Source: Gymnodinialimonas sp. 202GB13-11 (GTDB taxonomy: Bacteria; Pseudomonadota; Alphaproteobacteria; Rhodobacterales; Rhodobacteraceae). Taken from it: DNA of 64,000 nucleotides. Under the pieces are notes generated by a model that was not told where the DNA came from, did no database searches, and worked only from the letters and a program-made list of their open reading frames with translations. Positions 24,818 to 34,837 of the stretch are shown piece by piece (position 1 is the first letter of the stretch; each line of letters begins with the position of its first letter). Made by a program: the position numbers and the translations under genes. The stretch lies in assembly GCF_040932485.1 (NCBI RefSeq), contig NZ_JBFRBH010000001.1:310001-374000 (forward strand). The letters run 5' to 3'.

Positions 24818-25876
24818 TCATTGCTCCATCGCAGCATCCCAAGCTTCCAGAAAGCTCTCACGGTTCAGGCGATCGAGATACACCATCAAGGCCGGTCCCA
24901 AGCGGATCGGCCCGAAGGTTGACGCCGCCGCCTCTCCACGCGCTTGCAGCGGCGGCAGGACAGGGTCTGCACCGTCGCCCATTCCTTCGCTCAACAGCGC
25001 GTCCAGCATCAGACCCGCATCATCCACCCGCTCTGCCGTGGCCGGGATCAACGCCGTGCGTAGCATGACATTGGCGAAATCCTCCAAGGGTAAAATTGCC
25101 AGCCCTTCATCCGTGCCCAACCGCCCTTCGGCGTAGGAGCCAAGCACATTGTAAGCCAGTGCCAGGTCTCCTGAGGCAACATCGTCGATCATCTGCGACG
25201 AACAGCAGTAGAGCCGCGCCTCCAGCCGCCCCATCACCTCCGTCAGGCGCCAATAAGCATCCGTTGAGCGCGCCTCCTGCGTGGCGAACAGATAACCAAG
25301 TCCACTGGCGCGTAGGTCGTACGTTCCGACACCCCCGGCAAATCGCTCCGGATAATCGCGCAGCAGTGTAACCAGATCGGCCCGAGTGCGTGGCAGGGCA
25401 AGGCCCTCGAACCGGGCCTCGTTGATCACGATCACTGCAGGCTCTGCCGTGAAGGCGAATAGCCGGTCATTCCAACGCGCCCAATCCGGTAGGGCTTGTG
25501 TGATCGCGCTGGAATAGCTCTGTGCAAAGCCGTCATTGGCAAGCGCAAATTGCAGATCCATGGCGGAAGACAAGGCGAGATCGAACGTCGCACCTCCCCG
25601 GATTGCACGGTGCAATTCGGCAGAGGATGCGGTGACATAGTCGATGCCGAGTTCCGGGTTGGCCTCTTGGAACCGCAGCAAGAACGGCTCAAACACATCC
25701 AGATCAGCGGTCGAGATCACCCGCAGAACATCCGCGCCCGTACCCGGATAGGTCCGCCGATCCTCAATCTCGAAACCCTGCGCCCCCGCGACCGCTGCGA
25801 GGAGGGACGCAAACAGCGACCCGAGGAGGGGCGCAAAGAACCACCTCACGCGGCGGGCAAGATGAGCGACACACAT
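24818..25876 (-). CDS. Periplasmic substrate-binding protein encoded with tctDE
   Basis: 352 residues. A basic N-terminus and hydrophobic core (about 12-32, 'GSLFASLLAAVAGAQG') form a signal peptide. The body resembles the AfuA/iron(III)-type extracellular binding proteins: 'VLRVISTADLDVFEPFLLRFQEANPELGIDYV', 'SSAELHRAIRGGATFDLALSSAMDLQFALA'. No ABC permease or ATPase gene is adjacent. Instead its start overlaps the end of the sensor kinase gene by 31 bases, so it is co-expressed with tctDE and may present ligand to the sensor. Iron transport is unlikely here. Confidence 0.75.
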   Translation of the reverse strand: MCVAHLARRVRWFFAPLLGSLFASLLAAVAGAQGFEIEDRRTYPGTGADVLRVISTADLDVFEPFLLRFQEANPELGIDYVTASSAELHRAIRGGATFDLALSSAMDLQFALANDGFAQSYSSAITQALPDWARWNDRLFAFTAEPAVIVINEARFEGLALPRTRADLVTLLRDYPERFAGGVGTYDLRASGLGYLFATQEARSTDAYWRLTEVMGRLEARLYCCSSQMIDDVASGDLALAYNVLGSYAEGRLGTDEGLAILPLEDFANVMLRTALIPATAERVDDAGLMLDALLSEGMGDGADPVLPPLQARGEAAASTFGPIRLGPALMVYLDRLNRESFLEAWDAAMEQ

Positions 25877-27222
25877 GCGCCCGTTCCTTCCTCATTGCTG
25901 GTCAGGTCGAGGCGTCCGCCATGGGCACGCAGCACTTCATCAGCGATGGTCAACCCAAGGCCTGACCCGACGACACCCTCCACCTGATCGCCACGGCGGA
26001 ACCGTTCGGTCAATTGCGTGGCCGACGCCTGTCCAAAGCCCGGGCCCTGATCGCGCACCATCACTTGAGTTTCGCCGGCGCCATTGCGGACAGACAGGGT
26101 CACGACCGTTTCGGCGGGCGAGTATTTGATGGCATTATCCAGCACATTACGCAGCGCGTTCTGGATTAGGATTTCATCACCCTCGGCATGGGCCGGGGAC
26201 ACATCCAGCGCAATATCGATATCTTTCATCTGCGCTGTGGGCCGCAGCGCCTCGGCCACATCCCCGACCAGCGCAGGCAGATCAAGCCGCTCCCGCGTCA
26301 GATCATCCGCCCGGAACGAGACCATGGCGTGATCCAGCAATTGCGAAGCGGAGCGAGAGCTTTCGTCCACCGCACGGATCACCCTGCGCAACGTCCGCTT
26401 CTGGCCTTCTTCCTCCACCGAATGGAGAGCAATTTCCGCCTGTGTGCGCACAACCGCCAGTGGTGTGCGCACCCGATGCGCGGCCTCCGCGATGAAATCC
26501 TCTGACCGCCGCAGCGAACCGCCAAGTCGTTCCATCAACCTGTTGAGCGCGTGCACCAGTGGCATCAATTCCGGCGGTCCCTGCCGCCTGAGCGGGCGCA
26601 AATCCGACGGCCCCCGCGTCGCCAGATGCTGTGCCATCGTGTTCAGCGGCCTAAGCGAAGCGCGCACAGCAAACGCCGCAATCCCTACCGCCAAGACAAA
26701 AACCATCCCCGACAGGAACGCCGCCTGCCGCGAAAGCCCCGCCGCAATCGCCTGCACCCCATCGCGCGTCTGCGCAAGAGTCACCGTCACCGGCACTGCC
26801 GCCCCGTCGCGCTGGATGATACGCTGCAAACTGACCGCCCGCACGGTCACGTCGCGGTAGGGCACGGTGGCAAACCGCGCCTCGCCTGAGGTAGCGTCCG
26901 GCCCCACCAGATCGCCGTATCCCGTAAGCACCTCATCCCCCACCGCCACGCGGTAGAACACCCGATCCTCGCTCAAAGCGCCCAACATCGAAAAGGCGGA
27001 ATAAGGCAGTTCCAACCGGATCTCCCCCCCTTCGGAGCGCAGTGTCTCAGCAATGGAAGTGGCCGAGGCCGCAAGGATATTGTCCTGTGTCCGCCCCGCA
27101 GCCTCGCGCGCGAACGATGTCACCATGTACCAGCTAACAAGCGCCAGGATCGCCACCATTGCCGCCAGAAACAGCGTCAGCCGCCGTGCAATCGACCAGC
27201 GTTCGGAGAACCCGCCGCTCAT
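25846..27222 (-). CDS. tctE: Sensor histidine kinase of the tricarboxylate transporter system
   Basis: 458 residues. Two transmembrane segments (about 15-38 and 168-188) enclose a ~130-residue periplasmic domain of the TctE type, then a HAMP-like linker, the H-box His249 ('FIAEAAHRVRTPLAVVRTQ'), the N-box 'NALRNVLDNAIKYSP', and G-boxes 'DQGPGFG' and 'GSGLGLTIADEVLRAHGG'. I start it at 27222, in a 4-base ATGA overlap with the response regulator; the open frame further upstream is antisense-like sequence within tctD. With TctD it should sense an external carboxylic acid and control tctCBA. Confidence 0.85.
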   Translation of the reverse strand: MSGGFSERWSIARRLTLFLAAMVAILALVSWYMVTSFAREAAGRTQDNILAASATSIAETLRSEGGEIRLELPYSAFSMLGALSEDRVFYRVAVGDEVLTGYGDLVGPDATSGEARFATVPYRDVTVRAVSLQRIIQRDGAAVPVTVTLAQTRDGVQAIAAGLSRQAAFLSGMVFVLAVGIAAFAVRASLRPLNTMAQHLATRGPSDLRPLRRQGPPELMPLVHALNRLMERLGGSLRRSEDFIAEAAHRVRTPLAVVRTQAEIALHSVEEEGQKRTLRRVIRAVDESSRSASQLLDHAMVSFRADDLTRERLDLPALVGDVAEALRPTAQMKDIDIALDVSPAHAEGDEILIQNALRNVLDNAIKYSPAETVVTLSVRNGAGETQVMVRDQGPGFGQASATQLTERFRRGDQVEGVVGSGLGLTIADEVLRAHGGRLDLTSNEEGTGACVSLILPAA

Positions 27223-27878
27223 GTATCCATCCGGTAGCCAAGCCCGCGCACCGTCTCGATCCGCACGCCCACCCCGTCCAGCTTCTTGCGTAATCGACCC
27301 ACGTAAACCTCGATGGCATTCTCGGTCACATCGGCGTCCATGCTGAACAACCGATCCAGAAGCTGCCCTTTCGACAGGATCTGCCCCTGCGCACGCGCAA
27401 AAACCTCCAGCAACCGCAATTCCCGGTTCCGCAAATCCAGCACCTGCGCGCCATGCCGCAAGGTACCCGCCATCGGGTCGAACACTGCCTCGCCCAATGT
27501 GATCTCGTTCTTCGCAGCCCCACCGCGCCTGCGCAACACCGCCCGGCAACGTGCCTCCAACTCGCTGAAATCAAATGGTTTCGTGATGTAGTCATCCGCT
27601 CCCTGATCTAGGGCACCCACCCGGTCACTGATCTGGCTGCGCGCCGTCAAAACGATCACGGGTGTCTCCAGATGGTCGCGGTGGCGGCTCAGGAAATCGC
27701 GCCCATCGCCATCGGGCAGCATCACGTCCAGCAGGATCAGGTCATATTCGGCCACTGCCAGGCAATCCTCGGCCGCCGCCAACGTGCCGGCATGGTCCAC
27801 CGCATGGCCGTCCAGCCCAAGGCGCTGCACCACCGCATCGGCCAATTCCGCATTGTCTTCGACTAATAGAAACCGCAT
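27219..27878 (-). CDS. tctD: OmpR-family response regulator of the tricarboxylate transporter
   Basis: 219 residues. Receiver domain with Asp8, phospho-acceptor Asp51 ('LILLDVMLPDGDG'), 'VLTARS' and Lys101 in 'YITKPFDF', then an OmpR winged helix ('RNRELRLLEVFARAQGQILSKGQLLDRLF', 'NAIEVYVGRLRKKLDG', 'TVRGLGYRMDT'). Start at 27878 (MRFLLVEDN); 12 further residues are possible upstream but not conserved. Paired with the kinase gene by ATGA overlap. A TGTCAG direct repeat with 11-base period before tctC is the expected type of binding site. Confidence 0.87.
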   Translation of the reverse strand: MRFLLVEDNAELADAVVQRLGLDGHAVDHAGTLAAAEDCLAVAEYDLILLDVMLPDGDGRDFLSRHRDHLETPVIVLTARSQISDRVGALDQGADDYITKPFDFSELEARCRAVLRRRGGAAKNEITLGEAVFDPMAGTLRHGAQVLDLRNRELRLLEVFARAQGQILSKGQLLDRLFSMDADVTENAIEVYVGRLRKKLDGVGVRIETVRGLGYRMDT

Positions 27879-27938
27879 CCGGCCCTCCCTCACGCGCGAG
27901 AGTGCCGCTGCCATTCGCCTCGTGCAACCGCTCAGATG

Positions 27939-28547
27939 TCAGACCAGACCGGCCAAAGAAGCGAACGGGTCGTGGTTTGGATCATCGTTCCAGATATACT
28001 CGCATTCCTCGGCCATCTTCTCGGCGGCTGCGCGCCCGAAAAGGTCTGCCGCCGCCGCCAGCGCCATGTCCATCCCCGCCGACACACCGGACGACGTGAA
28101 GAACTTCCCATCCTGCACCCAACGCGCCTGTTTCACCCACTCCACCTTCGGGGCCAGATGCACCGTGTCGTTGAAGTCGAGCTTATTGGTCGTTGCGCAC
28201 TTGCCATCCAGCACGCCCGTGATGCCCAACAGGATCGTTCCCGTGCAAACCGCCATCACCCGATCCGCCTTGCCCGCAACCTCCCGCACCCAATGAACCA
28301 GGACTTCATCCTTGATCGCGTCCAAAGCCGAGTCCCCACCCGGCACAAACAGCAGCTTGTAATCGCTGCTCTCTGCCAACGTCCTATCCGGCATGATCCG
28401 CTGCCCATGTCGGCTTGGCACTGGGTCCAGCGTGCTGGCCACAGTCACAACCTCGATCTCATCGCGAAACCCGCCCAACATCTCGATCGGCCCGAAATAG
28501 TCGAGCGTTTGAAAACCAGGAAAGACAAGGGCTGCCATTTTTTGCAT
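27939..28547 (-). CDS. DJ-1/PfpI-family protein
   Basis: 202 residues. Begins 'KMAALVFPGFQTLDYFGPIEML' and has the nucleophile-elbow cysteine Cys101 in 'MAVCTGTILLGITGVLDGKCAT'. This pattern is closest to the isonitrile hydratase/AraC-like GATase1 branch of the DJ-1/PfpI superfamily. The start at 28547 follows a strong GGAGGTGA Shine-Dalgarno. It lies between tctD (60 bases downstream) and the divergent tctC, so it may be the first gene of the tctDE transcript. Function in this cluster is unknown. Confidence 0.8.
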   Translation of the reverse strand: MQKMAALVFPGFQTLDYFGPIEMLGGFRDEIEVVTVASTLDPVPSRHGQRIMPDRTLAESSDYKLLFVPGGDSALDAIKDEVLVHWVREVAGKADRVMAVCTGTILLGITGVLDGKCATTNKLDFNDTVHLAPKVEWVKQARWVQDGKFFTSSGVSAGMDMALAAAADLFGRAAAEKMAEECEYIWNDDPNHDPFASLAGLV

Positions 28548-28627
28548 GAAATCACCTCCGACTGCACGGGTGGCAGTTGCCATCCCCGGCACCGACCCCA
28601 ACGCGAACCTAGCCCGGCCTGCGCCCA

Positions 28628-28644
28628 TGTCAGGCTTCTGTCAG
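28628..28644. promoter_or_regulatory. TGTCAG direct repeat, candidate TctD site
   Basis: TGTCAG at 28628-28633 and again at 28639-28644, 11 bases apart, both followed by a CTTC-like sequence. OmpR-family regulators bind head-to-tail repeats with one-turn spacing, and this pair is 65-81 bases before the tctC start in the divergent promoter. Confidence 0.5.
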
Positions 28645-28669
28645 CTTCACGTGCAACGAATCTCCGCAA

Positions 28670-28688
28670 GGACGGTGGAGGACCGTCC
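28670..28688 (+). promoter_or_regulatory. Leader stem-loop before the tctC ribosome site
   Basis: Perfect 7-base-pair stem GGACGGT/ACCGTCC with a GGAGG loop, ending 20 bases before the tctC ATG and 5 bases before its GGGAGG Shine-Dalgarno. The loop itself looks like a second ribosome-binding sequence. It could protect or modulate translation of this highly expressed binding protein; inference only. Confidence 0.4.
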
Positions 28689-28708
28689 ATCTATGGGAGG
28701 AAAACCAA

Positions 28709-29686
28709 ATGAAATTTACGCGTCGCGTCATGATGACAGCGGCCGCCGCGATGGTGGCATTCTCTGGTGCAGCTCAAGCTGACGGGCACCAGGTTCTCGA
28801 AGAACTGCACTTCCTGATCCCCGGCGGGGCAGGCGGCGGCTGGGACGGCACCGCACGCGGAACCGGTGAGGCGCTGACAGGCGCTGGCATCGTCGGCACC
28901 GCATCCTACGAAAACATGTCCGGTGGCGGCGGCGGTGTGGCGATTGCCCACCTGATCGAAAACGCCGACAGCATGGGCAACACGATGATGGTGAACTCCA
29001 CCCCCATCGTGATCCGCTCGCTGACGGGTGTGTTCCCGCAGAGCTTCCGTGACCTCACGCTCGTCGCCGGCACGATCGGTGACTATGCTGCGCTGGTCGT
29101 CGGCGCAGACAGCGAAATTCAGGATATGGCCGGCCTTGTCGCGGCCTATGAAGCCGATGCGAGCGCGTTCGCCATTGGCGGCGGCTCCGTGCCCGGCGGC
29201 ATGGACCACCTCGTCGCAGCCATGGCCATGCAGGCCGCAGATCAGGATCCGACCGGCTTCAGCTACGTGGCCTATGATGCAGGTGGTGCCGCCATGGCCG
29301 CGCTTCTGTCGGGTGAGATCCAAGCGCTCTCTACCGGGTTCTCTGAAGCCGTGGCGCTGGCACAGCAGGGCGAGGTTCGCATCATCGGTGTGACCTCGGC
29401 TGAGCGTGTCGACACCTTCGCTGATGCTCCCACGATGATGGAGCAGGGCCTCGACGTGGAATTCGTCAACTGGCGCGGTTTCTTCGCGGCTCCGGGTCTG
29501 GACGAGGAAACGGTCGGCAACATGCGCGCCGCCATCGCTGCGATGTACGACACCCCAGAATGGGAAGAGGTCCGTGCCCGCAACGGTTGGGTGAACATCC
29601 ACAACCCCGGCGACGATTTCGAGGCGTTCCTCGAAGCGCAGGAACAGCAGATCGGTGATCTGATGCGGACATTGGGCTTCCTGTAA
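28709..29686 (+). CDS. tctC: Tripartite tricarboxylate transporter, periplasmic binding protein
   Basis: 325 residues. Signal peptide 'MKFTRRVMMTAAAAMVAFSG' with cleavage after about residue 24 (AQA). The mature part has the TctC-family elements 'FLIPGGAGGGWDGTARGTGEAL', 'GGGGGVAIAHLI' and 'FVNWRGFFAAPGLDEE'. It captures a carboxylic acid in the periplasm for TctAB. First gene of a probable five-gene operon that continues with a CoA-transferase and a citryl-CoA lyase, which makes citrate or a close analogue the leading substrate. Shine-Dalgarno GGGAGG. Confidence 0.9.
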   Translation: MKFTRRVMMTAAAAMVAFSGAAQADGHQVLEELHFLIPGGAGGGWDGTARGTGEALTGAGIVGTASYENMSGGGGGVAIAHLIENADSMGNTMMVNSTPIVIRSLTGVFPQSFRDLTLVAGTIGDYAALVVGADSEIQDMAGLVAAYEADASAFAIGGGSVPGGMDHLVAAMAMQAADQDPTGFSYVAYDAGGAAMAALLSGEIQALSTGFSEAVALAQQGEVRIIGVTSAERVDTFADAPTMMEQGLDVEFVNWRGFFAAPGLDEETVGNMRAAIAAMYDTPEWEEVRARNGWVNIHNPGDDFEAFLEAQEQQIGDLMRTLGFL

Positions 29687-29695
29687 ATCCAATAG

Positions 29696-29720
29696 GGCGC
29701 GCGGGGCTCACTCGCGCGCC
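29696..29720 (+). terminator. Intercistronic stem-loop between tctC and tctB
   Basis: GGCGCGCG (29696-29703) and CGCGCGCC (29713-29720) form a strong 8-base-pair stem with a 9-base loop, 9 bases after the tctC stop and not followed by a T-run. Such stems after binding-protein genes commonly attenuate or stabilise the transcript so that the binding protein exceeds the permease. Confidence 0.55.
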
Positions 29721-29813
29721 ACTTCCCGGGCTGAATCCCCGTTTGCCTCACGTCGTAGGCGCGGCCTTGGCCCGGGATCACCAAAACAATTTAAATCGAA
29801 AGGGAGGCACCCC

Positions 29814-30308
29814 ATGGCGCTCGATCGCTGGATCGCGTTGGTCTTCGTGGCACTCTGTGTGCTCTACGGCTATGCCGCGTTCTTCACCATGGACCACCTG
29901 TTGCCGCCCTTCATGCAGCGCAATCCGGTCTGGCCCTCGACCTTCCCGAAAATCCTGTCAATCTGCGGCGTCATTGTCGGCCTCGTCGTCCTGCTCGGCA
30001 TCGAAAAGCAGAACACCGTGAAAGAGCCTTCGGCCACCGACATCAACTACCGCAATCTGGGCCAGTATCACATCGGCCAGGCGCTCGCCCTTCTGGGCCT
30101 CATGGTGGCCTACGCCCTGTGCCTGCGTCCTTTGGGGTTCATCGCCTCAACCATCCTGTTTCTCAGCCTTGGCGCCACGGTTTTGGGGGAGCGTAAGTTC
30201 CATTACCTCATCCCCATCGCCGCCGTAGCGACCTTCTTTGTGTGGTATCTGGTGCAAGAGGTGCTCGGCATCTTCCTGCGGCCCTGGCCCACCTTTCTGG
30301 TGAATTGA
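29814..30308 (+). CDS. tctB: Tripartite tricarboxylate transporter, small membrane subunit
   Basis: 164 residues with four likely membrane segments (about 7-26, 45-60, 84-106 and 112-152 as a long pair), the TctB topology. Conserved-looking motifs are 'WPSTFPKILSICGVIVGLVVL' in the first third and 'LRPLGFIASTILFLSLGATVLGERKF' before the last segments. Forms the inner-membrane complex with TctA. Preceded by GGGAGG and followed 12 bases later by tctA. Confidence 0.87.
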   Translation: MALDRWIALVFVALCVLYGYAAFFTMDHLLPPFMQRNPVWPSTFPKILSICGVIVGLVVLLGIEKQNTVKEPSATDINYRNLGQYHIGQALALLGLMVAYALCLRPLGFIASTILFLSLGATVLGERKFHYLIPIAAVATFFVWYLVQEVLGIFLRPWPTFLVN

Positions 30309-30320
30309 GGGAGGTCCGCC

Positions 30321-31847
30321 ATGCTTGAAGGACTCATGATCGGCCTGTCCACGGCCATCAACCCGTTCAACCTGATGATGGTCGTCTTCGGCTGCATTAT
30401 CGGCACATTCATCGGCATGTTGCCCGGCCTGGGCCCGATGTCGATCATCGCAATCATGATCCCCGTGGCGATCACGCTGGGGGATCCCACCGCCGCACTG
30501 ATCCTGCTGGCAGGTGTCTATTACGGGGCCATCTTCGGCGGCTCGACCTCTTCCATCCTGCTGAACGCGCCGGGGGTCGCGGGCACAGTTGCGACCAGCT
30601 TCGACGGCTACCCGATGGCGCAAAAGGGCATGGCGGGCAAAGCGCTCACCATCGCCGCTGTCTCGTCCTTCGCGGGCGGCACGATCGGCGCGATCCTCCT
30701 GATGGTCTTCGCGCCGATGCTCAGCTCCGTGGCACTCCTCTTCCACTCCGCCGAATACTTCGCGCTTATGGTGGTGGGCCTCTCGGCCATCGCCGCCTTT
30801 GCGGGCACGGGCCAAGTCGGCAAGGCGCTGATGATGACGCTACTGGGCTTGATCATGGCCACCGTCGGCGAAGGCGCACAATTCAACATGCCGCGCTTCA
30901 CCATGGGCCTGATGGACCTGCAATCGGGCTTCTCGTTCATCACGCTGGCTATGGCGATGTTCGCCCTGCCAGAGGCGATCTTCCTTGTGATGAACCCGGC
31001 CCGCTCGGCCCAAGGCTCAGACGGGGCGTCGGGCGGCAAGATCACCAACCTCCGCTTCAGCCGTGAGGAAGGCCGCAAGATGGTTCCCGTCATAGGGCGG
31101 CAATCGGTGCAGGGCTTCTTCATTGGCGTCCTGCCGGGGGCAGGGGCCACCATCGCCTCTTTCCTGGGCTACGCCGTCGAACGCAACATCGCGCCGAAGG
31201 GCGAGCAGGAGGAGTTCGGCAAAGGCTCCATCAAGGGCCTTGCGGCCCCTGAGACGGCCAACAACGCCGCCTGCACGGGCTCGTTCGTGCCCCTGCTGAC
31301 GCTCGGCATTCCCGGCTCCGGCACCACGGCAATCCTTCTGGGCGCGCTCATCGCGCTCAACGTCACGCCCGGGCCTCGCCTGATGACGGACGAGCCGCAG
31401 GTGTTCTGGGCCGTGATCATCTCGATGTATATCGGCAATCTGGTTCTGCTGATCCTGAACCTGCCGCTGATCCCCTACATCGCCAAGATCCTCGCGATCC
31501 CGCGCAACTACCTGATCCCGTTCATTTTGTTCTTCACCTTGATGGGGGCCTATATCGGCCAGAACAATTCGACTGAACTTCTGATCCTCGTGGGCTTCGG
31601 TGTGATCGCCACGATCCTGCGCTTTGCCGACTACCCGCTGGCGCCGCTTCTTATCGGCTTCATCCTCGGCACGATGCTGGAGGATAACCTGTCACGCTCC
31701 ATGCAGCTGGCGCAGGGCTTCGGCTTCATCTTCGACCGGCCCATGGCGCTGGGTCTGCTGATCCTCGCCGCGGTGCTGGTGCTGCTGCCGAGCTTCCGCG
31801 CTCGGCGGGCACGCAAGCGGGCCGAAGGCGTGGCGGATGGCGATTGA
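30321..31847 (+). CDS. tctA: Tripartite tricarboxylate transporter, large membrane subunit
   Basis: 508 residues, about 11-12 membrane segments. The family signatures are visible: 'IGTFIGMLPGLGPMSIIAIM', 'LAGVYYGAIFGGSTSSILLN', 'GFFIGVLPGAGATIASFLGY' and 'FVPLLTLGIPGSGTTAILLG'. The two glycine-rich loops are the symmetric transport motif. Uses an ion gradient to import the acid delivered by TctC. Its last 11 bases overlap the start of the CoA-transferase gene, which strongly suggests co-translation of uptake and activation steps. Confidence 0.92.
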   Translation: MLEGLMIGLSTAINPFNLMMVVFGCIIGTFIGMLPGLGPMSIIAIMIPVAITLGDPTAALILLAGVYYGAIFGGSTSSILLNAPGVAGTVATSFDGYPMAQKGMAGKALTIAAVSSFAGGTIGAILLMVFAPMLSSVALLFHSAEYFALMVVGLSAIAAFAGTGQVGKALMMTLLGLIMATVGEGAQFNMPRFTMGLMDLQSGFSFITLAMAMFALPEAIFLVMNPARSAQGSDGASGGKITNLRFSREEGRKMVPVIGRQSVQGFFIGVLPGAGATIASFLGYAVERNIAPKGEQEEFGKGSIKGLAAPETANNAACTGSFVPLLTLGIPGSGTTAILLGALIALNVTPGPRLMTDEPQVFWAVIISMYIGNLVLLILNLPLIPYIAKILAIPRNYLIPFILFFTLMGAYIGQNNSTELLILVGFGVIATILRFADYPLAPLLIGFILGTMLEDNLSRSMQLAQGFGFIFDRPMALGLLILAAVLVLLPSFRARRARKRAEGVADGD

Positions 31848-33039
31848 AGCGATTTCACCTGCACCCCTGTCTGGGGTGCGGGTGCTCGACCTGACTAACG
31901 TCCTCGCAGGTCCCTTCGCCTGCCACCAACTGGCCCATCTGGGCGCTGAGGTCATCAAAGTCGAAACGCCGGGGCGGGGGGATCTTGCCCGCAACCTAGG
32001 GGCCTCACCTGATCTCTCGGCGCATGGCATGGGCATCTCCTTCCTCGCCCAGAACGCGGGCAAACGATCCCTCACGCTCAACCTCAAACACCCCTTCGGC
32101 AAAGAGGCCCTCGAACGCCTCGTTGCCAGTGCAGATGTCCTTGTCGAGAACTTCCGCCCCGGCGTCATGAATCGCTTGGACCTGGGCTACGAAACCCTCC
32201 GCCAGACCAACCCGGTACTGATCTACTGCGCCATTTCCGGTTTCGGCCAAGACGGCCCGATGGCCAAACAACCCGCCTACGATCAGATCATCCAAGGCGC
32301 ATCCGGTGTCATGTCGATCACGGGCCACGGCGCACCGACCCGCGTCGGCTACCCGCTCAGTGACACCATCGGCGGCCTGACCGCCGCCATGGCGATCACC
32401 GCCGCCCTCAACGGGCCGAAACGCGGCACCTTCATCGACGTCTCCATGCTAGAGGCCACGCTCGCCACCATGGGCTGGGTCGTCTCCAACCACCTGATCG
32501 GCGGGGCCACGCCGCAGGCCCATGGCAACGAAAACCCCACCTCCGCGCCATCGGGAACGTTCCAAGCGCAGGATGCGCCGCTCAACATTGCCGCCAACAA
32601 GGATGAACAATGGCAGGCGCTCGCATCCCTCCTCGGTCGTTCCGACCTCCTCGCAGATGCGCGGTTTGCGACGCGGGAAGACCGCAAGGCCAACCGCCAT
32701 GCCCTGCGCGCTGAACTGGAGACGGTGCTTACGGGCAAACCCGCCGCCCATTGGGTCGCGGCGCTCAACGCAAACGGTATTCCGGCGGGCCCGGTCCTGA
32801 GTGTGCCGGAAATCCTTGCTCACCCGCAGGTGGCCGACCGGGGGCTCATTGCCCGGTTCGAGCCGGATGGCCTCGGACGCAGCATCGACGTCATGACCAC
32901 AGGCTTTCGCATGGATGATGTGCGCCCGCAGGTCGCAACACCACCGCCCGAACTGGGAGAGCACACCCACGACATTCTGCGCGATCTGGGCTACTCCGAG
33001 GACGATGTCCAAAGGATGAGTGAGGAGGGGGCGATATGA
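31837..33039 (+). CDS. CaiB/BaiF family (class III) CoA-transferase
   Basis: 400 residues. Typical elements: 'LSGVRVLDLTNVLAGPFACHQLAHLGAEVIKVE', 'LVENFRPGVMNRLDLGYETL', 'YCAISGFGQDGPMAKQPAYDQIIQGASGVM', where the Asp in 'AYDQ' is the nucleophile that carries the acyl group. Overlaps tctA by 11 bases upstream and the lyase gene by 4 (ATGA) downstream. Inferred role: transfer CoA from a donor thioester to the imported acid, giving citryl-CoA (or an analogue) for the next enzyme. Class III transferases also act on formate, carnitine, citramalate and itaconate, so the acid must be tested. Confidence 0.87.
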   Translation: MAIEAISPAPLSGVRVLDLTNVLAGPFACHQLAHLGAEVIKVETPGRGDLARNLGASPDLSAHGMGISFLAQNAGKRSLTLNLKHPFGKEALERLVASADVLVENFRPGVMNRLDLGYETLRQTNPVLIYCAISGFGQDGPMAKQPAYDQIIQGASGVMSITGHGAPTRVGYPLSDTIGGLTAAMAITAALNGPKRGTFIDVSMLEATLATMGWVVSNHLIGGATPQAHGNENPTSAPSGTFQAQDAPLNIAANKDEQWQALASLLGRSDLLADARFATREDRKANRHALRAELETVLTGKPAAHWVAALNANGIPAGPVLSVPEILAHPQVADRGLIARFEPDGLGRSIDVMTTGFRMDDVRPQVATPPPELGEHTHDILRDLGYSEDDVQRMSEEGAI

Positions 33040-33803
33040 GCGATGTGTCCGACTGGTGGCGCACCAAGATCATCGACATGGAGCCGGGTCGGATCGACTT
33101 ACGCGGTACTCCTGTGCAGGAGCATATCGGCAACCGGTCCTTTGCGCAGATGATCTGGTTAATGGTCTTGGGTGAAGAGATCATGGGCCCGCGCGCGGCT
33201 TTGTTCGAGGCCGCCTTGGTCGCTGCCGTCGACCATGGCCCACAAGCACCCTCCATCGCCGCCGCGCGGATGGCCGCGACCTGTGGCGTGGGTCTGAACA
33301 ACGCCATGGCGACGGGGTTGAATATGCTCGGCGACGTCCATGGCGGGGCAGGCGAGCAGGCGGTGGCGCTCTACCACCATGTCGAACGCGCAGGCCCCGA
33401 AAACATCGCTTCGACCCTCGGCACATGGCGGGCACAGAACGGCCCTTACTTGCCGGGCTTTGGCCACCGCTTTCACAAACCCACCGACCCGCGCGCCCCG
33501 CGCCTGCTGCAACTTGTCGATGAATGCGCCGAAACGGGGTCCGTTCCCGGGGCCTATGCCATGATCGGTCGCGCGATCGAGGCGCATCTGGCCGAAGAGA
33601 AGGGCAAGCCGGTGCCCATGAACATCGACGGGGCCACGGCGGTGATATTCGCCGAACTCGGCTGCCCCGCACCGCTGGCGCGCGGGTTCTTCTGCCTGTC
33701 GCGATCGGTCGGCATCCTTGCCCATGCCTGGGAGCAGGTCGAGCAGGGGGGCCGCAACAAGGGCCCCACACCGCCCGGGTATCGCTGGACGTTTGACGGG
33801 TAG
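33036..33803 (+). CDS. Citryl-CoA lyase-like protein (short citrate synthase homologue)
   Basis: 255 residues, much shorter than citrate synthase (about 430) and similar to the citryl-CoA lyase module of ATP-citrate lyase. All three catalytic residues of the fold are present: His102 ('GDVHGGAGEQAV'), His144 ('GFGHRFHK') and Asp198 ('MNIDGATAVIF'). Translationally coupled to the CoA-transferase. Expected to split citryl-CoA into acetyl-CoA and oxaloacetate. A citrate synthase role is unlikely because of length and context. A related substrate such as methylcitryl- or citramalyl-CoA is possible. Confidence 0.8.
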   Translation: MSDVSDWWRTKIIDMEPGRIDLRGTPVQEHIGNRSFAQMIWLMVLGEEIMGPRAALFEAALVAAVDHGPQAPSIAAARMAATCGVGLNNAMATGLNMLGDVHGGAGEQAVALYHHVERAGPENIASTLGTWRAQNGPYLPGFGHRFHKPTDPRAPRLLQLVDECAETGSVPGAYAMIGRAIEAHLAEEKGKPVPMNIDGATAVIFAELGCPAPLARGFFCLSRSVGILAHAWEQVEQGGRNKGPTPPGYRWTFDG

Positions 33804-33866: not shown

Positions 33867-33955
33867 GCCGAGTTTTGCCGGGTGCCGGATAGCACCGCTA
33901 GACACCACCGCCGCGCCTGCTACCTTCCGCGCTAATCAAATTGGCGGAGGCTCCC

Positions 33956-34837
33956 ATGGCGAAACTGGCATTTCTTGGACTTGGCGTGATGGGCTACCCC
34001 ATGGCCGCGCATCTGTTGGGCGCGGGGCAATCGGTGACGGTTTATAACCGCACCGCTGAGAAAGCTGCGAAATGGGCCTCGGAGATTGGCGGGTCACACG
34101 CCGCCACCCCTCGTGAAGCGGCTGAGGGCGCGGATTTCGTGATGGCCTGCGTCGGCAACGACGATGATTTGCGCTCGGTTGTGTTGGGCGAGGATGGTGC
34201 GCTGGCGGGCATGAAAGAGGGTGCGATCTTTGTGGATCACACCACCGTTTCCGCCATCGTCACAAAGGAGCTTGCCGCAATGGCGGCTGATCGAGGCGTG
34301 GGATGGGTCGATGCGCCAGTCTCTGGCGGGCAGGCGGGGGCCGAGAACGGGCAATTGGCGATCATGTGCGGCGGGGACGCGGCGCATTTCGACGCTGCGA
34401 AGCCCGTGATCGCCGCCTATTCCAAGGCGTCCGTGCATTTCGGCCCCGTGGGTTCCGGCCAGCTCGTTAAGATGATCAACCAGGTCTGCATCGCTGGCGC
34501 GATTCAATCGGTGTCCGAGGGGCTCTATATGGCGATGAAGGCCGGGCTTGATGCTAAGCAGGTCGCCGATCTCGTGAGCCAGGGCGCGGGCGGGTCGTGG
34601 CAGCTGGCCAACCGCGCGGGCACCATGGTCGACAATGAATTCAACCATGGCTTTGCGGTCGATTGGATGCGCAAGGATCTTGGCATCGCACTGGCGCAGG
34701 GCAAGGATATGGGGCTGAGCCTGCCAGTGACGGCAATGGTCGACCAATTCTACGCCGAGGTGCAGCAATTGGGCGGCGGGCGGTGGGACACCTCCTCCCT
34801 CATCCAGCGGTTCCGCAAGATGAACGACGAGATCTGA
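33956..34837 (+). CDS. Beta-hydroxyacid dehydrogenase (3-hydroxyisobutyrate / tartronate-semialdehyde type)
   Basis: 293 residues. N-terminal NAD(P) motif 'FLGLGVMGYPMAAHLLGAG' with 'YNRT' suggests NADPH preference; substrate-binding signature 'VDAPVSGGQAGAENGQLAIMCGG' and the catalytic-lysine segment 'GSGQLVKMINQVC' are intact. Start at 33956 after GGCGGAGG. The family includes 3-hydroxyisobutyrate dehydrogenase, 2-hydroxy-3-oxopropionate reductase and glyoxylate/succinic-semialdehyde reductase; the sequence alone does not decide. Four bases separate it from the next gene. Confidence 0.82.
   Translation: MAKLAFLGLGVMGYPMAAHLLGAGQSVTVYNRTAEKAAKWASEIGGSHAATPREAAEGADFVMACVGNDDDLRSVVLGEDGALAGMKEGAIFVDHTTVSAIVTKELAAMAADRGVGWVDAPVSGGQAGAENGQLAIMCGGDAAHFDAAKPVIAAYSKASVHFGPVGSGQLVKMINQVCIAGAIQSVSEGLYMAMKAGLDAKQVADLVSQGAGGSWQLANRAGTMVDNEFNHGFAVDWMRKDLGIALAQGKDMGLSLPVTAMVDQFYAEVQQLGGGRWDTSSLIQRFRKMNDEI

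Follow-up and report, generated by a model that had tools for sequence, protein, structure and literature searches.

A predicted operon for citrate import, CoA transfer and cleavage in Gymnodinialimonas sp. 202GB13-11

We have analysed a 64,000-nt stretch of the genome of Gymnodinialimonas sp. 202GB13-11 (contig NZ_JBFRBH010000001.1, positions 310,001 to 374,000; hereafter the window), in which five genes on one strand encode the three subunits of a tripartite tricarboxylate transporter (TTT), a CaiB/BaiF class III CoA transferase (CaiB) and a member of the citryl-CoA lyase family. The run is probably a citrate operon under the control of a divergent two-component system, whose products would import citrate, transfer CoA to it and cleave citryl-CoA to acetyl-CoA and oxaloacetate. 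Open reading frame calls were combined with Pfam and NCBIfam profile searches, and coordinates are given as window positions. The five genes are the following:

28709-29686, + strand: tctC, solute-binding subunit gene (Pfam TctC, 1.1e-21; 73% identity to the Ruegeria pomeroyi DSS-3 citrate transporter protein)
29814-30308, + strand: tctB, small membrane subunit (Pfam TctB, 3.3e-21; 65% identity to R. pomeroyi)
30321-31847, + strand: tctA, large membrane subunit (Pfam TctA, 4.8e-143; 83% identity to R. pomeroyi over 508 aa)
31837-33039, + strand: CaiB/BaiF class III CoA transferase, proposed acyl-CoA:citrate CoA transferase (Pfam CoA_transf_3, 8.6e-118)
33036-33803, + strand: citryl-CoA lyase family protein of 255 aa, proposed to convert citryl-CoA to acetyl-CoA and oxaloacetate (Citrate_synt C-terminal domain; NCBIfam NF004864)

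The initial annotation described these genes as overlapping or nearly so. This applies to the last two junctions, where tctA and CaiB share 11 nt and CaiB and the lyase gene share 4 nt, exactly as claimed, and not to tctC and tctB, which are 127 nt apart; the gap between tctB and tctA is 12 nt.

Identity of the lyase, the CoA transferase and the transporter

The product of the last gene scored 409 bits against NF004864 (citryl-CoA lyase), for which the curated cut-off is 261 bits; none of 14 control genomes had a match above that value. We have aligned the window copy with the proteins of 22 of the 24 other loci scoring above the cut-off (L011 and L023 were left out). The two histidines and one aspartate looked for in a lyase module (H102, H144 and D198), which had already been recognised in the 255-residue product, were invariant in all 23 sequences. 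Across 105 lyase sequences, whatever their gene neighbourhood, the same three residues were invariant together with R145, R153 and R223, which we take to be citrate-synthase substrate-binding positions. An AlphaFold model built from the 23-row alignment (mean predicted local distance difference test score of 88.6) found its best structural match in the Hydrogenobacter citryl-CoA lyase 6hxp (E 2.5e-15, template modelling (TM) score 0.80); ATP-citrate lyase (ACLY) modules came next, ahead of citrate synthases, for which TM was 0.67-0.71 among the matches listed. The sequence-profile search also ranked 6hxp first (3.7e-51 vs. 1.9e-29 for the best citrate synthase), and placed the ACLY modules below several citrate synthases. 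The profile score and the first rank of 6hxp in both searches supported placing the last gene among the citryl-CoA lyases and not with citrate synthase, in agreement with its first description as a lyase-type citrate-synthase homologue.

The fourth gene product combines the CoA_transf_3 domain with D176, which occupies the position of the class III catalytic aspartate. This residue was invariant in the 23 sequences chosen and aligned with an aspartate in three solved relatives. The nearest solved structures were a formyl-CoA transferase entry, the succinate-hydroxymethylglutarate CoA transferase SUGCT and YfdE. Hydroxymethylglutarate is citrate with a methyl group replacing the central carboxylate. 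Since the SUGCT acceptor differs from citrate by this single exchange, citrate is, by analogy, a plausible acceptor for CaiB.

The substrate of the transporter could be approached through R. pomeroyi DSS-3, whose tctCBA genes (at 200.8 kb) show the identities listed above and whose tctA is the sole TctA match at E <= 1e-150 in that genome. The R. pomeroyi locus has divergent regulator, kinase and solute-binding-protein genes as in the window and is flanked by flagellar genes. Five genes (regulator, kinase, binding protein and two others) separate its tctC from flgE, and the numbering from SPO0186 to flgE (SPO0192) in the available text of PMC4809877 corresponds to exactly such a five-gene step. 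According to the available text of PMC10130141, the R. pomeroyi delta-SPO0184 (tctABC) mutant lost 99.1% of its growth on citrate and 99.3% of its citrate drawdown. Import of citrate by the window TctCBA, as proposed in the initial annotation, is thus well supported by orthology (TctA 83% identical, divergent regulator genes in common) to a transporter verified with a mutant. Solved relatives of TctC were distant (best E 6.9e-19), with no ligand given. Citrate handling by roseobacters bears on marine carbon flow.

Recurrence of the gene order and transporters lacking the two enzymes

The five-gene order is not unique to the window. We have scanned named genomes and compared 80 loci, these being the best 80 of 489 relatives taken from a candidate list itself limited in length. 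The order tctC-tctB-tctA-CaiB-lyase, with a close TctA and all genes on one strand, was complete in 36 of them. Four further loci cut by a contig end (L044, L054, L076 and L097, with the contig start falling in tctA) were consistent with this order and were counted in the five-gene class, while an Ahrensia locus (L078) displayed it with a more distant TctA (606 bits). Six loci contained all parts in another arrangement, namely L049, L074, L077, L085 and, grouped apart, L066 and L095, where another membrane gene lies between tctA and the lyase gene. CaiB was found directly 5' of the lyase gene in every locus except the latter two (78/80), its match being weak in L070 and L086 (135-140 bits). 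At the CaiB/lyase junction, the stop/start overlap reads ATGA in 30 of the 41 loci whose TctA is close; in 10 of the other 11 the letters, read by eye, are TTGA or GTGA.

A second, independently drawn survey took one genome per genus from the family of the window, 295 in all, with thresholds of E <= 1e-150 for TctA and E <= 1e-40 for the lyase. TctA was detected in 78 genera, the lyase in 65 and both in 49 (Fisher p 7e-22 for co-presence, with genera that are not independent). In 30 of the 295 genera the lyase gene was located 3' of tctA on the same strand at a distance of 1177-1323 nt, which leaves room for one CaiB gene (tctA and the lyase being what was searched). The genus of R. meonggei was also inspected: tctA was matched at E <= 1e-200 in 39 of 54 genomes, and among 30 of these 39 loci that were fetched, CaiB adjoins tctA in 24, with the lyase start also visible in 23, and the remaining six show neither. 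The same tctC-tctB-tctA-CaiB-lyase order was present on a Photobacterium plasmid, where TctA scored 600 bits vs. about 900 in family members.

Because the order recurs and the 4-nt stop/start overlap between CaiB and the lyase gene is conserved, a chance arrangement can be excluded. On a tree of the 105 lyase sequences the five-gene label changed seven times, six of these changes being forced by well-supported branches, with a bootstrap that is not fully settled. Hence, as judged from this tree, the link between tctCBA and the CaiB-lyase pair does not trace back to one inherited accident, gains and losses being indistinguishable. A different proposal is that CaiB and the lyase are passengers, co-transcribed with TctCBA and sharing no pathway with it. 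It could draw on the 29 of 78 TctA genera without the lyase and on the 19 of 49 genera with both genes in which these are not adjacent. We regard it as highly improbable, since the spacing between tctA and the lyase gene hardly varies in the 30 of 295 genera where they adjoin, the 4-nt overlap is conserved, and adjacency is also seen in Ruegeria and, with more distant TctA, in Ahrensia and Photobacterium.

The transporter also occurs without the two enzymes. In R. pomeroyi there was no CaiB match in the 19.9 kb around tctCBA, the stretch to which that search was confined, and no NF004864-type lyase in the genome, the best match being 29% identical at 7e-14. We have fetched 20 of the 29 lyase-free TctA loci of the family survey together, plus one more (L240). 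All 20 had tctC, tctB and tctA and none had CaiB or the lyase gene; regulator, kinase and binding-protein genes were each present in 16. Since citrate is used by R. pomeroyi although CaiB is absent from its locus and a lyase of this type from its genome, the CaiB-lyase pair is, on this comparative evidence, an add-on, accessory to citrate use and not a condition of uptake. The initial concept of a single uptake, activation and cleavage module was therefore upheld for citrate import, for the lyase family, for the absence of a CitF match (see below) and for the recurrent order, and not for uptake, which needs neither enzyme.

Upstream of the five genes, and following them, the window contains:

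27219-27914, - strand: tctD-like response regulator (Response_reg and Trans_reg_C domains; true start possibly near 27878)
25846-27216, - strand: tctE-like sensor histidine kinase of 456 aa (2CSK_N, HisKA and HATPase_c domains), kept beside tctD in relatives
24818-25876, - strand: extracellular solute-binding protein (SBP_bac_1), encoded with the kinase
27939-28628, - strand: DJ-1/PfpI gene, between the tctD/tctE pair and tctC
33941-34837, + strand: 2-hydroxy-3-oxopropionate reductase/HIBADH-like gene, after the lyase gene

Regulator, kinase and solute-binding-protein genes were all divergent, as judged by an automated test, in 33 of the 36 complete loci (exceptions L041, L046 and L093). The regulator had TctD as its best NCBIfam match, with 191.6 bits vs. 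an equivalog cut-off of 337. The solute-binding-protein gene was found in 42 of the 80 named loci and in R. pomeroyi; it is kept behind the sensor kinase, and the conserved set includes no ABC transporter genes. Its product is likely a periplasmic sensor partner of the kinase. A scan for promoters and terminators gave no signal above shuffled sequences. The initial annotation had started the module at 28547, which falls inside the DJ-1/PfpI gene, and had included tctDE, which lies outside that range with the DJ-1 gene in between. We have rejected the DJ-1 gene as a member (apart from the window, just two of the 80 named loci have it, L033 and L034), as well as the HIBADH-like gene as a sixth one (strong ortholog after the lyase gene only in L033-L035). 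A multi-pass membrane protein gene lies in or after the operon in L044 (2102-3235), L066 (5361-6452), L095 (7958-9004) and L085 (9786-10829). The L085 protein belongs to the AbrB family (PF05145) and its cluster spans 12 loci including L044; those of L066 and L095 were alike by eye only.

Other settings of the lyase and of the CaiB-lyase pair

Since the CaiB-lyase pair also adjoins other transporter types, it is not bound to the TctCBA transporter. Its position after a DASS-family anion symporter in Methylobacterium nodulans is one that we count in favour of the citrate pathway. It accompanies an ABC transporter in Bradyrhizobium sp. 187; an ABC transporter, an aldehyde dehydrogenase and an FAD oxidoreductase in Azospirillum, where the lyase gene is 5' of that of the transferase; and again an aldehyde dehydrogenase and an FAD oxidoreductase in Agrobacterium larrymoorei, where an aconitase gene is close by. 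In L081 it occurs with tripartite ATP-independent periplasmic (TRAP) transporter genes, and at other loci with distant TTT systems. Lyase matches were present in 29 plasmid records, 10 of which were examined.

These settings bear on the possibility that TctCBA carries citrate, the substrate of CaiB and the lyase being a citrate-like acid with the importer or the inducer of the operon in common (citramalate, methylcitrate, homocitrate or a further 3-hydroxy-3-carboxy acid). The distant TTT, TRAP, DASS and ABC neighbours would fit such a substrate, as would an R. pomeroyi genome without such a lyase. We consider it rather unlikely in view of the repeated pairing with the ortholog of a citrate transporter and of the invariance, in all contexts compared, of the lyase residues at citrate-synthase/Ccl active-site positions. 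The citramalyl-CoA lyases of itaconate degradation, moreover, are CitE-like proteins with a different fold.

A separate clade of the lyase, for the most part without CaiB, was found in clusters linked to TRAP genes. These clusters also encode a QuiC-like fused protein, an acylating aldehyde dehydrogenase and a thiamine pyrophosphate (TPP) enzyme, all three scoring below their NCBIfam cut-offs. Among 14 loci that we have compared (two with CaiB), the fused protein or a relative was present in 12, the TPP enzyme in 11, and the aldehyde dehydrogenase and the TRAP genes in 10 each; none of the four was detected in the stretch fetched for L216. In L211 (1044-12580), the CaiB-free cluster comprises a TRAP transporter, a GFO/IDH oxidoreductase, a fused AP-endonuclease-like/HPPD-like protein, the citryl-CoA-lyase family protein, the acylating aldehyde dehydrogenase and the TPP enzyme. 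Similar clusters were observed in L198, L199, L200, L201, L205, L208, L210 and L212, and partial ones in L214 (no aldehyde dehydrogenase or TPP gene in the fetched stretch) and L217 (no TRAP genes there). Such a cluster possibly encodes a quinate/shikimate-type route ending in citryl-CoA.

A single run on an Azoarcus sp. KH32C plasmid (L253:1837-9351) contains genes for an HPPD-like protein, an isomerase, a CoA transferase, the citryl-CoA lyase, a TPP enzyme, a shikimate dehydrogenase and a 3-dehydroquinate dehydratase, which ties the lyase to acids of the shikimate type. In quinate, carbon 1 already bears the CH2-C(OH)(COOH)-CH2 core of citrate. We can envisage, as a tentative possibility, that several catabolic routes of alphaproteobacteria and relatives converge on citryl-CoA. 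The lyase would then be fed either by an importer and a class III transferase acting on citrate or, where the transferase is missing, from a quinate/shikimate-type ring acid through a thiamine-diphosphate decarboxylase together with an acylating aldehyde dehydrogenase. If true, this would imply a free-CoA citrate lyase system and an unrecognised route into it.

Several points weigh against the citrate pathway proposed for the window. R. pomeroyi grows on citrate without the pair at its transporter locus, as described, and besides the 19 genera in which TctA and the lyase are not adjacent, five tctCBA loci (L224, L231, L232, L236 and L237) have CaiB and no adjoining lyase gene, each genome having the lyase elsewhere. 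The lyase gene of Bradyrhizobium sp. CB82 has no annotated CoA transferase next to it on its strand. CaiB scored below all seven NCBIfam equivalog cut-offs listed (succinate-glutarate, oxalate/formyl, mesaconate and carnitine CoA transferases among them), its best score being 289 bits vs. a cut-off of 750 for the succinate-glutarate transferase. The catalytic role of the homologous human ACLY module is disputed (available text of PMC10115795), and we have found no enzymatic data for NF004864 members or for this CaiB group in the open-access papers listed. Because the same lyase family also occurs without CaiB in a different, TRAP-linked cluster and the pair adjoins other transporters, the NF004864 "equivalog" name may hide several substrates. 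Here lies the main uncertainty: the other settings could also deliver citryl-CoA, as the one substrate of the family, or could be the signal of several substrates.

Proposed citrate pathway and comparison with known systems

In the citrate pathway that we favour, TctCBA would import citrate, as its R. pomeroyi ortholog does according to the mutant. CaiB would then move CoA from acetyl-CoA or succinyl-CoA onto a terminal carboxylate of citrate, and the citryl-CoA formed would be split by the lyase in a retro-Claisen reaction to acetyl-CoA and oxaloacetate, as its family membership and residues suggest. With acetyl-CoA as donor, the net conversion would be that of citrate to oxaloacetate and acetate, i.e., the citrate lyase reaction with free CoA replacing the CitD carrier protein. 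With succinyl-CoA, citrate and succinyl-CoA would yield oxaloacetate, acetyl-CoA and succinate. Neither variant would consume ATP directly. The position of the divergent genes suggests that the two-component system controls the operon. In Ruegeria sp. AD91A, acetate kinase and phosphate acetyltransferase genes adjoin the lyase gene on the opposite strand, a weak hint of acetate release.

The genome of the window encodes an AcnA aconitase (of two aconitase-superfamily matches, one is AcnA and the other LeuC) and a type I citrate synthase (750 bits vs. a cut-off of 485). A search of the same genome for CitF, the citrate lyase alpha subunit, gave no matches, while it matched three of 14 controls, one of them above the cut-off; this agreed with the absence of a CitDEF-type prosthetic-group lyase claimed in the initial annotation. 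Given AcnA, the type I citrate synthase and the lack of a CitF match, the module appears to form an additional branch for citrate cleavage beside aconitase, a short cut that would give C4 and C2 units (oxaloacetate and a C2 unit) straight from imported citrate. The common fold of lyase and citrate synthase would also fit an enzyme running in the synthetic direction, as a small citrate/citryl-CoA synthase with CaiB recovering CoA. This seems very doubtful to us: the genome already has the type I enzyme, the 255 aa correspond to the length of a citryl-CoA-lyase module only, the protein ranks with Ccl and ACLY by fold and with Ccl by profile, and an importer in the operon favours breakdown.

Compared with known systems, the closest likeness in transport is to R. 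pomeroyi DSS-3 tctABC (SPO0184-0186), a verified citrate transporter (available text of PMC10130141), which shares the orthologous TctCBA and the divergent regulator, kinase and solute-binding-protein genes with the window and differs by lacking CaiB in the 19.9 kb around the locus and the NF004864-type lyase in the genome. The two-step citrate cleavage through free citryl-CoA proposed here resembles that by CcsAB and Ccl in Hydrogenobacter thermophilus, the latter being the nearest solved structure (6hxp). CcsAB, the citryl-CoA synthetase, uses ATP. Whereas activation in H. thermophilus relies on this synthetase (PMC9768450), a class III CoA transferase, encoded beside an importer, is proposed for the window. 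For CcsAB the analysis covered the window only, and there the place beside the lyase gene is taken by the CoA transferase gene.

CitDEF employs an acyl carrier protein that bears a prosthetic group. Acyl exchange followed by cleavage would give the same net reaction in the window system, provided that acetyl-CoA serves as donor; the difference lies in the genome of the window having no CitF match. The C-terminal lyase module of ACLY shares its fold with the window lyase, which is a stand-alone 255-aa protein with no ATP-dependent synthetase part. Itaconate degradation likewise involves CoA transfer to an acid and then C-C cleavage, as proposed here; its citramalyl-CoA lyase is of the CitE type, whereas the window lyase belongs to the citrate-synthase superfamily and the window system has no hydratase. 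The available text of PMC12290011 describes an itaconate CoA transferase, a hydratase and a citramalyl-CoA lyase in such clusters, with a TTT binding protein encoded nearby in C. necator. SUGCT (9br7) belongs to class III and is among the nearest solved relatives of CaiB (1.7e-69); it uses another acceptor, and CaiB falls short of the succinate-glutarate cut-off as noted above.

We have found no description of CaiB and a citryl-CoA lyase with a TTT importer in the open-access PMC literature (titles and abstract starts, among the matches listed), and the public record of Ruegeria sp. AD91A already annotates the permease, the CaiB/BaiF CoA-transferase and the citryl-CoA lyase. The system is hence a new combination of known, already annotated parts, whose joint function is not described as far as the literature was searched. 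If the proposed pathway is true, it would provide a function for a widespread lyase family that we met in that literature only under its annotated name. Citrate cleavage driven by a CoA transferase would then join CitDEF, ATP-citrate lyase, Ccs/Ccl and reversed citrate synthase as one more way of splitting the molecule.

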